A DNA stretch of 6,733 nt from Candidatus Sumerlaeota bacterium. Its GTDB lineage: Bacteria > CG03 > SLGR01. The DNA is taken from the NCBI GenBank assembly GCA_007136585.1, contig SLGR01000042.1:1-6733 (forward strand), read 5' to 3'. Below are positions 2,940-6,733 of the stretch, piece after piece. Within the stretch, counting starts at the first letter, position 1; each line of letters begins with the position of its first letter. Below the pieces are notes generated by a model. That model saw nothing but the letters and a program-made list of their open reading frames with translations. It was not told the origin of the DNA and ran no database searches. A program made the position numbers and the translations under genes.

Positions 2940-4055
2940 CTACCGCAGCGCTTCCGCTGCCAATACCAGTTCCACTCCGGCCTCCTGAAAAACAGGTAAG
3001 AATTCCCTGATGATATCAGCTGTATGCTTTCTGTTTATATGGCAGATCCCTATCACAATCCCCTCGTGCTCAAGAGCCCTCTCCTTTAAAAGAGTTAAGC
3101 GACTTCTTATATATTCAGGCGAATCTTCATTATCAAGAAAGACCCTGTTGCGGGCGCTGGGGACTTCCAGTTCCCTGGCAGTCTCCAGAGCCAGAGAACT
3201 CCCGGTGGTCCAGGAATCTATAAAGAACATATCCTTATTCCCAAGAACTTCCATAAGGGCCTTAACTGAAACCCTGTCTGAGGTAAAAGCAGAACCCATA
3301 TGATTATTAAGCCCCGGCGCCCCGGGAACATAAGAGAGGGCTTTCTCAAGAGCTTTTTCAACCTCTTCAATGCTCATACCTCTGAAAAGGGCGGGGCTCC
3401 CGGGGTTTATATCAGGGTACCCTTCCGGCTCCATGGGCATATGAAGGATATAAGACAATCCGTCCTGTTTTAACTCTTCCGCAATCCTGCGCGAGTACGG
3501 AAGCCCCGGCATTACGGCGTAGGTAAGAGGAACCCCAAGAGAAGTAAAACTTTCTATATCCTCTGAATATCCAAGATCATCAACTATTATCGCCGCACGG
3601 GCTCGTTTGCTTAGATCAAATATAATCCGGGAAAAGAGGGCCCCGCCGTAAGAAACCGTGAGTTCAGATTTTCCGGGGTACCTTGTAAGATAAACCTCGT
3701 ACCCTCTCCGTCGGGCAACCTCTTTCAGCTCCTCGGTCAGTTTTTCAGCCCGCCGGGGTGAGGTCTCGATCTCACGGAAAAACTTAACCCATATAACGTT
3801 ATCTTTTCTCTCGCTTCTCCGGCTGGAACTTATAGAATCTTCCGGTATACCTGAACCGGCTAAAAGCCCGCTCAGTTCGGTCTCAAACTCCAGTGACTCT
3901 ATTATAAGGTCTTCCACCGGGGCCCTGACGGAAAATATGTAAAACCCGGCAGCGGCGAGTGTCAGGAGTACGGCAGCAGCAAGAAATACCGTGACGCTAC
4001 GGGAGTTCCCAGAGTCAGAGAAGAACCGGGGTTTATTGAACGTTTTCTTTATCAT
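2940..4055 (-). CDS. YibQ-like divergent polysaccharide deacetylase family protein, membrane anchored
   Basis: A 371-residue envelope protein of the divergent polysaccharide deacetylase family (PF04748, YibQ). It has a basic N-terminus, one membrane segment (about 21-43, VTVFLAAAVLLTLAAAGFYIF) and a linker or small domain (about 44-150). The NodB-like domain follows (about 152-371): AAIIVDDLGY (154-163), PLTYAVMPGLPYS (176-188), LHMPMEPEGYP (204-214), GLNNHMGS (248-255), FFIDSWTT (277-284) and GIVIGICHINRKHT (332-345). The paired Asp (159-160), the HMPMEP His and NNHMGS are the usual conserved positions. The domain should face the periplasm. Its substrate is not established; family members sit beside envC and ctp genes, as here. 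The start at 4053-4055 overlaps the end of ctpA by 23 bases, suggesting translational coupling; there is no good Shine-Dalgarno at the normal distance (AAGG is about 13 bases away). The stop is followed by the structured repeats. Confidence 0.94.
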   Translation of the reverse strand: MIKKTFNKPRFFSDSGNSRSVTVFLAAAVLLTLAAAGFYIFSVRAPVEDLIIESLEFETELSGLLAGSGIPEDSISSSRRSERKDNVIWVKFFREIETSPRRAEKLTEELKEVARRRGYEVYLTRYPGKSELTVSYGGALFSRIIFDLSKRARAAIIVDDLGYSEDIESFTSLGVPLTYAVMPGLPYSRRIAEELKQDGLSYILHMPMEPEGYPDINPGSPALFRGMSIEEVEKALEKALSYVPGAPGLNNHMGSAFTSDRVSVKALMEVLGNKDMFFIDSWTTGSSLALETARELEVPSARNRVFLDNEDSPEYIRSRLTLLKERALEHEGIVIGICHINRKHTADIIREFLPVFQEAGVELVLAAEALR

Positions 4056-5295
4056 TTAGCAGGAAAAACCTTCTGGCCAGCAGTATATCGTGCGCCCGGG
4101 TGAGCTGGGGATCTTCTACAATCTCTTCTTGCCGGCGCCGGTGCTCCTCTTCCGAAAGCCCCAGAATTTCCTGCTGCTGTTCAATAATCTGCCTGCGGAT
4201 CTCTCTTGTGAGCTCCACTTTTATATCCGGTTCTATCCCCTCCTTATGAATTGATATGCCCGAGGGCGTATAATACCTGGCCGTGGTAAGACGCAGGGAT
4301 GAGCCGTCATCCAGGTCAATTATGCTCTGAACCGAGGCTTTGCCGAAAGTTCTTTCCCCGAGGATAAGTCCCCTGCCGTGGTCTTTTATGGCTCCGGCCA
4401 CAATCTCAGAACCCGAGGCGGAGCCCCTGTTTATAAGAACTACGAGCGGAACATCCGCAGCAAGCGGAGGGCGCCTTGCGTAGAACCGTCTGTTCTGATC
4501 TTCTCTTCTCCCCTGTGTGTATACCACAAGTTCACCTCTTTCAATAAAAACATTGGTTATCCCGATGGCTGAGCTCAGAAGCCCCCCGGGGTTGTTCCTG
4601 ATATCAAGGATAAGTCCCTCAATCCCTTCCTCCTTAAGCCCGGAAAGCTCCTGCCTCATAATCTCAGGCGCGTCTTCCGTGAACTCTACAAGGCGCAGAT
4701 ACCCTATATTTCCGTCAAGCATATCCGTGTAGACCTTCTGAGGCACGATTATCTCCCTGGTTATGGTAAACTCAAGAACCTCATCCTCACCATCCCTGTC
4801 TATGGATATGGTCACATCTGTTCCTTCGGGGCCGCGAAGCTTTGTTACCGCCTCCCTGAGCGTAAGACCTATGGCCGATTCGTCGTTTATCTTTACTATC
4901 CTGTCCCCGGGGGATATACCCAGCTTGTAAGCGGGGGTATCCGGGAGAGGGGTAACCACGGTTATAATCTCGTCTTTTGCTGTTATCCGTATACCCAGCC
5001 CCCCGAACTCCCCTTCAGTATCCGCCTTCAGAAGCTCGGAAGCCTCCGGGTCAAGGAACTGAGAATAGGAGTCAAGGGACCTCATCATCCCCTTCATAGC
5101 TCCCTGGATAAGTTCAACCTCATCAACATCGTCAACGTAGTTCTCGCTTATTATAGAAAAAACATCCGAAAAAAGACGCATCTGCTTTTCCACTTCTTCA
5201 TGACCCGGACGGGTATGAACAGCCCCCCTGTATGCTCCAGCGGCAAAAAGGCAGCAGCTTAGAATAAGCACCCTTAAATTAAATTTATAAAACAT
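4033..5295 (-). CDS. ctpA: C-terminal processing serine protease CtpA (S41, PDZ domain)
   Basis: Periplasmic protease of family S41A that cleaves proteins near their C-termini. It acts in envelope maturation and in turnover of peptidoglycan enzymes in several bacteria. At 420 residues it is of usual length. Residues 1-21 form an export signal (MFYKFNLRVLILSCCLFAAGA). An N-terminal helical part (about 35-95) includes LDSYSQFLDPEA. The PDZ domain (about 96-180) starts GEFGGLGIRI, with LPDTPAYKLGISPGDRIVKI (117-136). The protease core follows, with the strand LILDIRNNPGGLL (228-240). The catalytic set is S294 in GSASGSE (291-297), K319 in TFGKAS and Q323, with the spacing of 25 and 4 that the family requires. 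A Gly usually following the Lys is Ala here. The C-terminus (360-420) is charged and helical. The start at 5293-5295 has AAGGGAG about 10 bases upstream and lies 36 bases after the envC stop. Its end overlaps the next gene, so it is mid-operon. Confidence 0.97.
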   Translation of the reverse strand: MFYKFNLRVLILSCCLFAAGAYRGAVHTRPGHEEVEKQMRLFSDVFSIISENYVDDVDEVELIQGAMKGMMRSLDSYSQFLDPEASELLKADTEGEFGGLGIRITAKDEIITVVTPLPDTPAYKLGISPGDRIVKINDESAIGLTLREAVTKLRGPEGTDVTISIDRDGEDEVLEFTITREIIVPQKVYTDMLDGNIGYLRLVEFTEDAPEIMRQELSGLKEEGIEGLILDIRNNPGGLLSSAIGITNVFIERGELVVYTQGRREDQNRRFYARRPPLAADVPLVVLINRGSASGSEIVAGAIKDHGRGLILGERTFGKASVQSIIDLDDGSSLRLTTARYYTPSGISIHKEGIEPDIKVELTREIRRQIIEQQQEILGLSEEEHRRRQEEIVEDPQLTRAHDILLARRFFLLNDKENVQ

Positions 5296-5331: not shown

Positions 5332-6733
5332 CTATTGGGAGCCGAGCCATTCCATAGGGTTCTCAGGCTGGGCTCCTTTCCCTATCTCAAAATACATATC
5401 ACCTTCAGCAGCATACCCCAGCAGATGCCGGGGATCAACTTCAGAACCCGGATCAACCTTAAGCTCTCCAAGGTTCCCGTAAATAGTATAATAATCTTTT
5501 CCGTGATCAATTACAACCATCATCCCCATTCCTTCAAAGTAGCCTGAATAAACCACCTCCCCGGCCCCTACGGCTACAACCTCCGCGCCTTTGGAGGCAT
5601 TTATTTTTATTCCCCTGTTGTAAACATAGGTATCAAGTGTCTCGTGAGGCTGTCTTCCGAATCCCGAAACCACACTGCCCTGAACAGGACGGGCCAGGAG
5701 TCCCCGGGCGGAGGCAAAATCACCGGCAATCTCCTCCAGTCTTTCCAGGTTTGTCGCCTTCTGCTGCAGAAACTCAAGCAGGGATGAAAGCTCCTTTCGC
5801 TCCCTGCGGACCTTATCCAGGACCTCCTCTTTTTTTTCCCTGTCAGATTCTATCTTTTTAAGAAGGGCAACCTGCTCCCGCCTTTTACTTATAAGCCTGT
5901 CCTGGAGGGCTACGGTCTCTTCCTGCATTTCGACGAGGTTATCCATCCTGTTTTTCTGCTCTTTTTTAAGGGCGGTTACTTCCGCTATATCATCCCTGAT
6001 ACCGGTTAATTTTTCCGAGGTAAAACCTATCATACGCTTCAGGGTATAAAGTATTTCAGGACTGCCGGAGGAAATATACGCGCTGTGAACGGGCAGATTA
6101 AAATCCGAAAACTTACGCCTCTGGTAACTTTCAGCCAAACTTTCCAGTACCTCCAGGCAGATCTTGCTCTGCCTGAGCTCCTCCTGCAATTTCCTGTCTG
6201 TCTCTTTAATCTCCCGCTCTATTACCCGGCGGCGGTCAGAAAGGTTATTCAGCTTCTCCTGTTTTCTCCTGATACGATTTTCTGTTTCACGCTGTCCCCG
6301 CAAGAGTTCCTCTTCTCTCCTGGAGAGATCTTCAAGCTCCCTTCGGGAGCGCTCCAGTTCAGCGTCAAGCTGCCTTAGTTCCGTTTCCTGCTTCTGTATC
6401 CTCTTTCTGAGTTCAGGCAGACCTCCGGTATCCGAAGAACTAATGACCGCGCTGACAGAAAAGGGAAGCATAAGACCGGAAAGGATAAGAGCCAAGAGAG
6501 TTTTATCACGTAAAAATCTTTTTAACTTCCACGAGGATACGGTCCCCGCGGCGGCTCCGCTTGCCGCAGCTGAAAAAACCATAAATGAGAGGTCAAGGGC
6601 CCCGTAAGCCAGGTAAAGGATGCCGGATGACCATACCCCCCCGGAGACCATTCCGGCAACCGCAAAATAAACAATCATATTCAGTTTTAATTTTTTTTCC
6701 CGTCCGCCTGCCAGATGCGCGAACTTAAGCTCC
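5332..6733 (-). CDS. envC: FtsX C-terminal segment in frame with EnvC-like murein hydrolase activator (5' end beyond window)
   Basis: One open frame runs from the window edge to TAG at 5332-5334. Residues are counted from the Met at 6676-6678, which has no Shine-Dalgarno and is probably internal; 18 more codons are open upstream. Residues about -18 to 57 resemble the end of FtsX: ELKFAHLAGG, then two membrane segments (about 1-26 and 28-48), then KLKRFLRD (51-58), like the RRFLR ending of many FtsX proteins. A third hydrophobic stretch (60-79) looks like an EnvC signal peptide. Two coiled-coil blocks follow (about 86-175 and 220-315), then a LytM/M23 domain (about 330-448) ending ENPMEWLG, as in EnvC. 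The M23 zinc and catalytic positions are replaced: NRGIK (354-358) for HxGxD, YGN (400-402) for YAH and DMY (427-429) for HLH. It should therefore activate amidases rather than cut. FtsEX normally controls EnvC. It heads the ctpA-deacetylase operon. The EnvC part is secure; the fusion is probable but could be a one-base indel. Confidence 0.87.
   Translation of the reverse strand, partial: ELKFAHLAGGREKKLKLNMIVYFAVAGMVSGGVWSSGILYLAYGALDLSFMVFSAAASGAAAGTVSSWKLKRFLRDKTLLALILSGLMLPFSVSAVISSSDTGGLPELRKRIQKQETELRQLDAELERSRRELEDLSRREEELLRGQRETENRIRRKQEKLNNLSDRRRVIEREIKETDRKLQEELRQSKICLEVLESLAESYQRRKFSDFNLPVHSAYISSGSPEILYTLKRMIGFTSEKLTGIRDDIAEVTALKKEQKNRMDNLVEMQEETVALQDRLISKRREQVALLKKIESDREKKEEVLDKVRRERKELSSLLEFLQQKATNLERLEEIAGDFASARGLLARPVQGSVVSGFGRQPHETLDTYVYNRGIKINASKGAEVVAVGAGEVVYSGYFEGMGMMVVIDHGKDYYTIYGNLGELKVDPGSEVDPRHLLGYAAEGDMYFEIGKGAQPENPMEWLGSQ
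6442..6532 (-). other. FtsX/EnvC junction with latent GTG start and TGATAA stop in the -1 frame
   Basis: In the open frame this segment encodes the basic stretch KLKRFLRDK and the hydrophobic run from TLLALIL to SVSAVIS. In the -1 frame of the same strand there is a tandem stop TGATAA (6503-6508), just where FtsX proteins usually end, and a GTG (6530-6532). Adding one base within the A5 (6519-6523) or T5 (6512-6516) runs, as read on the coding strand, would end FtsX at that stop. It would also give EnvC its own start, MEVKKRFLRDKTLLALIL or MEVKKIFLRDKTLLALIL, a textbook signal peptide. As read, the frame is continuous and no stop separates the two parts. Confidence 0.55.

Follow-up and report, generated by a model that had tools for sequence, protein, structure and literature searches.

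A continuous open frame at the contig edge

Does the last gene of this contig encode EnvC alone, or a single polypeptide in which EnvC follows FtsX? The window, i.e., the whole stretch of 6,733 nucleotides analyzed here, is the entire contig G000:C188 of a Candidatus Sumerlaeota genome; the assembly ends at position 6733, and no extension beyond it is therefore possible. As the initial annotation had it, the minus-strand frame that closes with the stop codon at 5332-5334 is open up to the window edge, a length of 466 codons, or of 448 when counted from the first ATG. In the 300 nt adjoining the edge this frame alone is free of stops, the other two carrying five and four, and the chance of an open stretch of 77 codons in a given frame is about 0.018 under a Markov-1 model of the window. 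Hydropathy analysis of the translated frame revealed hydrophobic segments at residues 19-33, 38-52 and 79-93. The first two, and the basic stretch KLKRFLRDK that follows them (residues 69-77), are the two membrane segments and the KRFLR motif that had been described at the place where FtsX normally ends. The features of the locus are collected in Table 1. Searches of the window's own MAG with PF18075 and with the FtsX of a relative did not recover the remainder of ftsX. The other end of the contig (3-809, minus strand) carries a truncated glycosyltransferase which, by eye only, resembles sucrose synthase or sucrose-phosphate synthase.

Table 1. Features of the ftsX-envC region of the window
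Feature	Position	Strand	Basis or remark
Continuous open frame: FtsX C-terminal part plus EnvC	5332..6732	-	466 codons and a stop; runs open to the end of the contig
Putative FtsX C-terminal part, residues 1-77	6502..6732	-	Synteny with relatives of the same order, hydropathy, sole open frame
GTGG (in GTGGAAG)	6529..6532	-	One-G deletion gives GTGAAG, the GTGA overlap of relatives (single-indel enumeration)
TLLALILSGLMLPFSVSA, residues 78-95, EnvC signal peptide, would-be TM5	6448..6501	-	Aligned with the signal peptides of relatives
EnvC coiled-coil region, about residues 100-335	5728..6435	-	Alignment with six relatives
LytM/Peptidase_M23 core, residues 372-458, ends MYFEIGKGAQPENPMEWL	5359..5619	-	Pfam PF01551, 62.5 bits
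S41 C-terminal processing protease (CtpA-like), next gene downstream	4033..5295	-	Also at the fused f30 and several Nitrospirota loci

Identity of the two parts of the window frame

Peptidase_M23 is the sole Pfam match in the frame, and a coiled coil followed by a LytM (M23) domain, the arrangement expected of EnvC, is found both in the window and in the fusions described below (PF01551). The LytM domain of the window is degenerate, with MYFEIGKG instead of the HxH motif; the change of HxH to xYF is also seen in the fusions (YLYFEIRE in the family f30, IYFELRH or LYFEMRH in the Nitrospirota). Since HxH is missing, the LytM domains of the window and of the fusions are, as judged from this motif, of the activator type. 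A match to Amidase_3 was not found in the window MAG (88% complete), nor in G002, a genome of the same family; Amidase_3 is represented in six of seven relatives of the same order, including G001, also of the window's family.

Residues 1-77 comprise a basic loop, GGREKKLKLN, followed by two hydrophobic segments, which would be TM3 and TM4, and by a basic, presumably cytoplasmic, tail. The FtsX Pfam domain is absent from the frame, and a FtsX profile built in the course of this work scored only 2.8 bits against its 5' part, within the range of shuffled sequences; assignment of residues 1-100 to FtsX by profile was discarded as not significant. The same profile performs weakly on the group, the FtsX of one genuine relative (G002) reaching just 28 bits. 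Because the score is not significant, the FtsX label of the window piece rests on conserved gene order, topology and charge, in a region without significant sequence similarity to FtsX. When the FtsX and M23 profiles named in the initial annotation are run over the frame, M23 is matched but FtsX is not; the reading of the upstream residues as FtsX agrees with synteny and topology. In the Elusimicrobiota loci L006-L016, FtsX is very divergent and barely recognized by a broad FtsX profile.

Complete FtsX-EnvC fusions in other lineages

Sixteen unbroken FtsX-EnvC frames were found in other uncultured bacteria of two other lineages, three in the family f30 and 13 in the Nitrospirota. The three f30 frames and eight of those from the Nitrospirota could be read from ATG to stop over both whole proteins, and five more read through both halves. 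A domain-wide search detected a complete FtsX-EnvC protein of 668 residues (L023, in G039). Complete single frames without internal stop occur in three genera of f30, that of L023 included (669-714 aa, 47-50% identity); in the other two genera the fusion is preceded by a gene for an ABC-ATPase (FtsE-like) and followed by one for an S41 protease. Among 386 genomes sampled across the domain, the unbroken full-length frame was confined to the three f30 genomes. Scanning of the named genome contigs yielded eight Nitrospirota fusions (L101, L105, L111, L124, L143, L144, L146 and L168), and a survey of 245 Nitrospirota genomes found 12 frames without a break, of which five had not been seen before. 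FtsX_ECD (PF18075), FtsX (PF02687) and M23 scored above the curated Pfam cut-offs in all six fusions scanned (P0001, L143, L168, L101, L105 and L111). Each half matches solved chains of its own protein, FtsX or EnvC, and the EnvC halves give long matches to the EnvC chains 8tzk_E, 6tpi_A and 8hd0_E. The fusion is the sole full-length match in each of 11 fused genomes checked, and Amidase_3, the client family of EnvC, is present in 10 of 11 fused genomes. An AlphaFold2 model of L143 (mean pLDDT 73.7; pTM 0.41, the relative placement of the parts not being reliable) shows a FtsX fold, a low-confidence TM5 region, a coiled coil and LytM, and the structures that it matches best are those of FtsX and EnvC from FtsEX-EnvC complexes.

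The 16 fusions are not independent data points but represent about three lineages. In an EnvC tree, made by a quick method with no bootstrap, the 11 fusions included call for at least three changes, forced by the starred branches, and for four when the window is added. As an architecture predicted from these frames, the FtsX-EnvC fusion is clearly real outside the window, and with it the proposal that the EnvC signal peptide has become a fifth helix, of inferred topology, proved right; for the window itself, where the 5' part of ftsX is missing, the proposal is plausible. Four long open frames from GC-rich genomes that resemble fusions (L021, L043, L089 and L094) were rejected, FtsX lying in another frame, as were G055 and G075, in which FtsX and EnvC share a frame but a stop separates them. 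In L124 (2305-4299), about 23 residues of the cytoplasmic loop between TM2 and TM3, kept in the other fusions (alignment A3, columns 196-220), are missing from the FtsX part, through either a real deletion or an assembly artefact.

The junction is followed by a predicted signal-peptidase site

In the Nitrospirota clade FtsX ends in GSWxSVGRY and continues without a spacer as the signal-peptide core LGVAIFLFLCLN; in the Troglogloeales the turn between TM4 and TM5 is longer and basic. In about twenty more Nitrospirota genomes FtsX and EnvC share a frame that one or two stops interrupt within the aligned stretch; all ten of those read (L280-L289) are split, and in nine of the ten EnvC opens directly after the FtsX stop (for example GRFLKV-stop-GGG-ATG). 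Apparently one mutation away from a fusion, these split loci look like possible intermediates.

The joined protein could in principle stay in one piece, with EnvC permanently tethered to FtsX through TM5, a reading that has some merit, the topology placing EnvC beside its controller, but that we consider less than even. A predicted Ala-type signal-peptidase site (beyond the hydrophobic core of TM5, with A at -1 and a residue at -3 that is small or aliphatic) is present in 14 of the 16 fusions and in the window, where SVSA/VI, a SPase-I-like site, follows the third hydrophobic segment. For the 11 fusions compared directly, the rule holds at 11 of 11 TM5 exits but at just 6 of the 22 exits of TM1 and TM3 that served as controls. 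The exceptions are L275 and L277 (in G409 and G433), which have lost the Ala at -1 (TVA replaced by HEV and PVV), and because of this replacement EnvC may be permanently tethered in these two. Moreover, an uncut fusion forces the synthesis of one EnvC per FtsX, whereas in E. coli one EnvC engages two FtsX periplasmic domains (PMC7668044). As an uncut fusion would give more EnvC than such an arrangement uses, we favor a polyprotein that can be cleaved and that, in some lineages, stays permanently tethered. The initial annotation, which regarded TM5 only as a tether, overlooked the signal-peptidase-like site that follows TM5. Another way to a free EnvC would be translation of the fused frame together with internal initiation in the 3' end of ftsX, from which a functional EnvC would be made separately. 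Of six Nitrospirota clade-A loci, five do have a TTG or ATG directly before TM5; an internal ATG is found in L101, and several starts are found in L279. However, L143 and L037 have no ATG, GTG or TTG within the 20 codons before TM5, so that separate initiation of EnvC is unlikely there; in the window the sole candidates are a TTG within the hydrophobic core and a TM4 ATG that lacks a SD; and SD-like sequences are not conserved. With no conserved start codon, internal initiation was rejected as a general explanation, and we regard it as improbable.

The case for two genes bears on the window itself, in which ftsX and envC may be separate, overlapping genes whose single frame arose through a mistake in sequencing or assembly or through a recent disabling mutation; a surplus G at 6529-6530 would then hide a GTGA overlap, and KLKRFLRDK would be the n-region of the EnvC signal peptide. 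The window lies in an Elusimicrobiota MAG, and the named records with its nearest homologues are MAGs labelled 'Elusimicrobia bacterium'. The initial annotation had proposed close relatives as a place to look for the same single frame; in all six relatives of the same order with the locus (G001-G006), two of them in the window's family, ftsX lies upstream of envC in a different frame; the frameshift between the two parts, named there as the contrary outcome, is thus found in relatives at the family and order level. The junctions show a GTGA or ATGA stop/start overlap in three, a directly adjoining start in one and a 28-nt overlap in two. Deletion of one G at the above position of the window gives exactly a -4 overlap and an EnvC that starts MKLKRFLRDKTLLALILSG, with a good signal peptide. 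This restoration is weak evidence, because several other single indels at the junction also yield near-canonical starts (overlaps of 8 or 10 nt, or a TTG start). Furthermore, the FtsX so produced would end ...GAAAGTVSS, without the K/R tail present in split Elusimicrobiota relatives, and FtsX-EnvC fusions are real in other lineages. In the window MAG, no credible frameshift was detected in the 93 genes with homologues (105 kb). Five candidates of a first screen were dismissed as four antisense ORFs and one pair of response regulators, and a sense-only screen left just the response-regulator locus, L257. Searches found no independent assembly of the window's species or genus and no congener for comparison. 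On balance two separate genes appear unlikely, and we consider a real fusion in the window genome likely; since the relatives are split and deletion of a single G restores their arrangement, it is not proven.

A proposed polyprotein variant of FtsEX-EnvC

Taken together, one reading, to which we give a probability of roughly 55%, is that FtsX and EnvC were joined at least three or four times into a polyprotein in which the signal-peptidase site is usually kept, forming a cis switch with 1:1 synthesis, and that the cut was lost in some lineages. We infer translation as one chain, the membrane topology, the cleavage and the activation of amidases as follows. In the window, TM3 and TM4 of FtsX and a short basic cytoplasmic turn would lead into the EnvC signal peptide, now TM5, which would bring the coiled coil and the degenerate LytM domain into the periplasm. 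For the 16 genomes elsewhere, one gene would make both the FtsX gate and the amidase activator, the gate being driven by FtsE, which is encoded just upstream where that sequence is available. The fused polypeptide would insert co-translationally, and its FtsX part would dimerize and bind FtsE. ATP-driven movement of the FtsX periplasmic domain would then shift the EnvC coil and release the LytM domain for amidase binding, as in the FtsEX-EnvC of E. coli. Once the chain is inserted, most lineages probably release EnvC by cleavage; where the site is lost, EnvC would stay joined.

The fusion is a variant of FtsEX-EnvC and not a new kind of system. Like the complexes of E. coli, P. aeruginosa and V. 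cholerae (PDB 6tpi, 8hd0, 8i6o and 8tzk), it combines FtsX and its periplasmic domain with an EnvC made of a coiled coil and a degenerate LytM domain; where neighboring sequence exists, the fused gene also stands between genes for a FtsE-like ABC ATPase (upstream) and an S41 protease (downstream). It differs in being one gene and one frame where the known system has two proteins, and in turning the EnvC signal peptide into an internal TM5. In the Gram-positive FtsEX-PcsB, FtsEX-CwlO and FtsEX-RipC systems, FtsEX also controls a secreted coiled-coil partner; this partner, however, is a hydrolase and a separate protein, whereas the fusion carries an EnvC-type LytM without HxH, in cis. In the cytochrome b/c1 polyprotein (fbcH) of Bradyrhizobium, too, a cleavable internal signal peptide links a polytopic membrane protein to a periplasmic one. 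The proteins and the pathway are unrelated to FtsX-EnvC, and the cleavage, predicted for the fusion, has been demonstrated experimentally in fbcH. No description of a natural FtsX-EnvC fusion was found in the open-access literature searched.

How FtsEX hands ATP-driven motion to the hydrolase activator is an active structural question. Because ratio and attachment point are fixed in them, natural fusions offer a test of whether the system requires the 2:1 arrangement and an EnvC with a free N-terminus, and they provide structural studies with constructs of a single gene. That fusion occurred repeatedly and independently supports a direct, obligate partnership of FtsX and EnvC across distant bacteria. 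If the recurrent polyprotein is real, a two-protein switch for cell separation would assemble in cis, with a fixed 1:1 synthesis of its parts.
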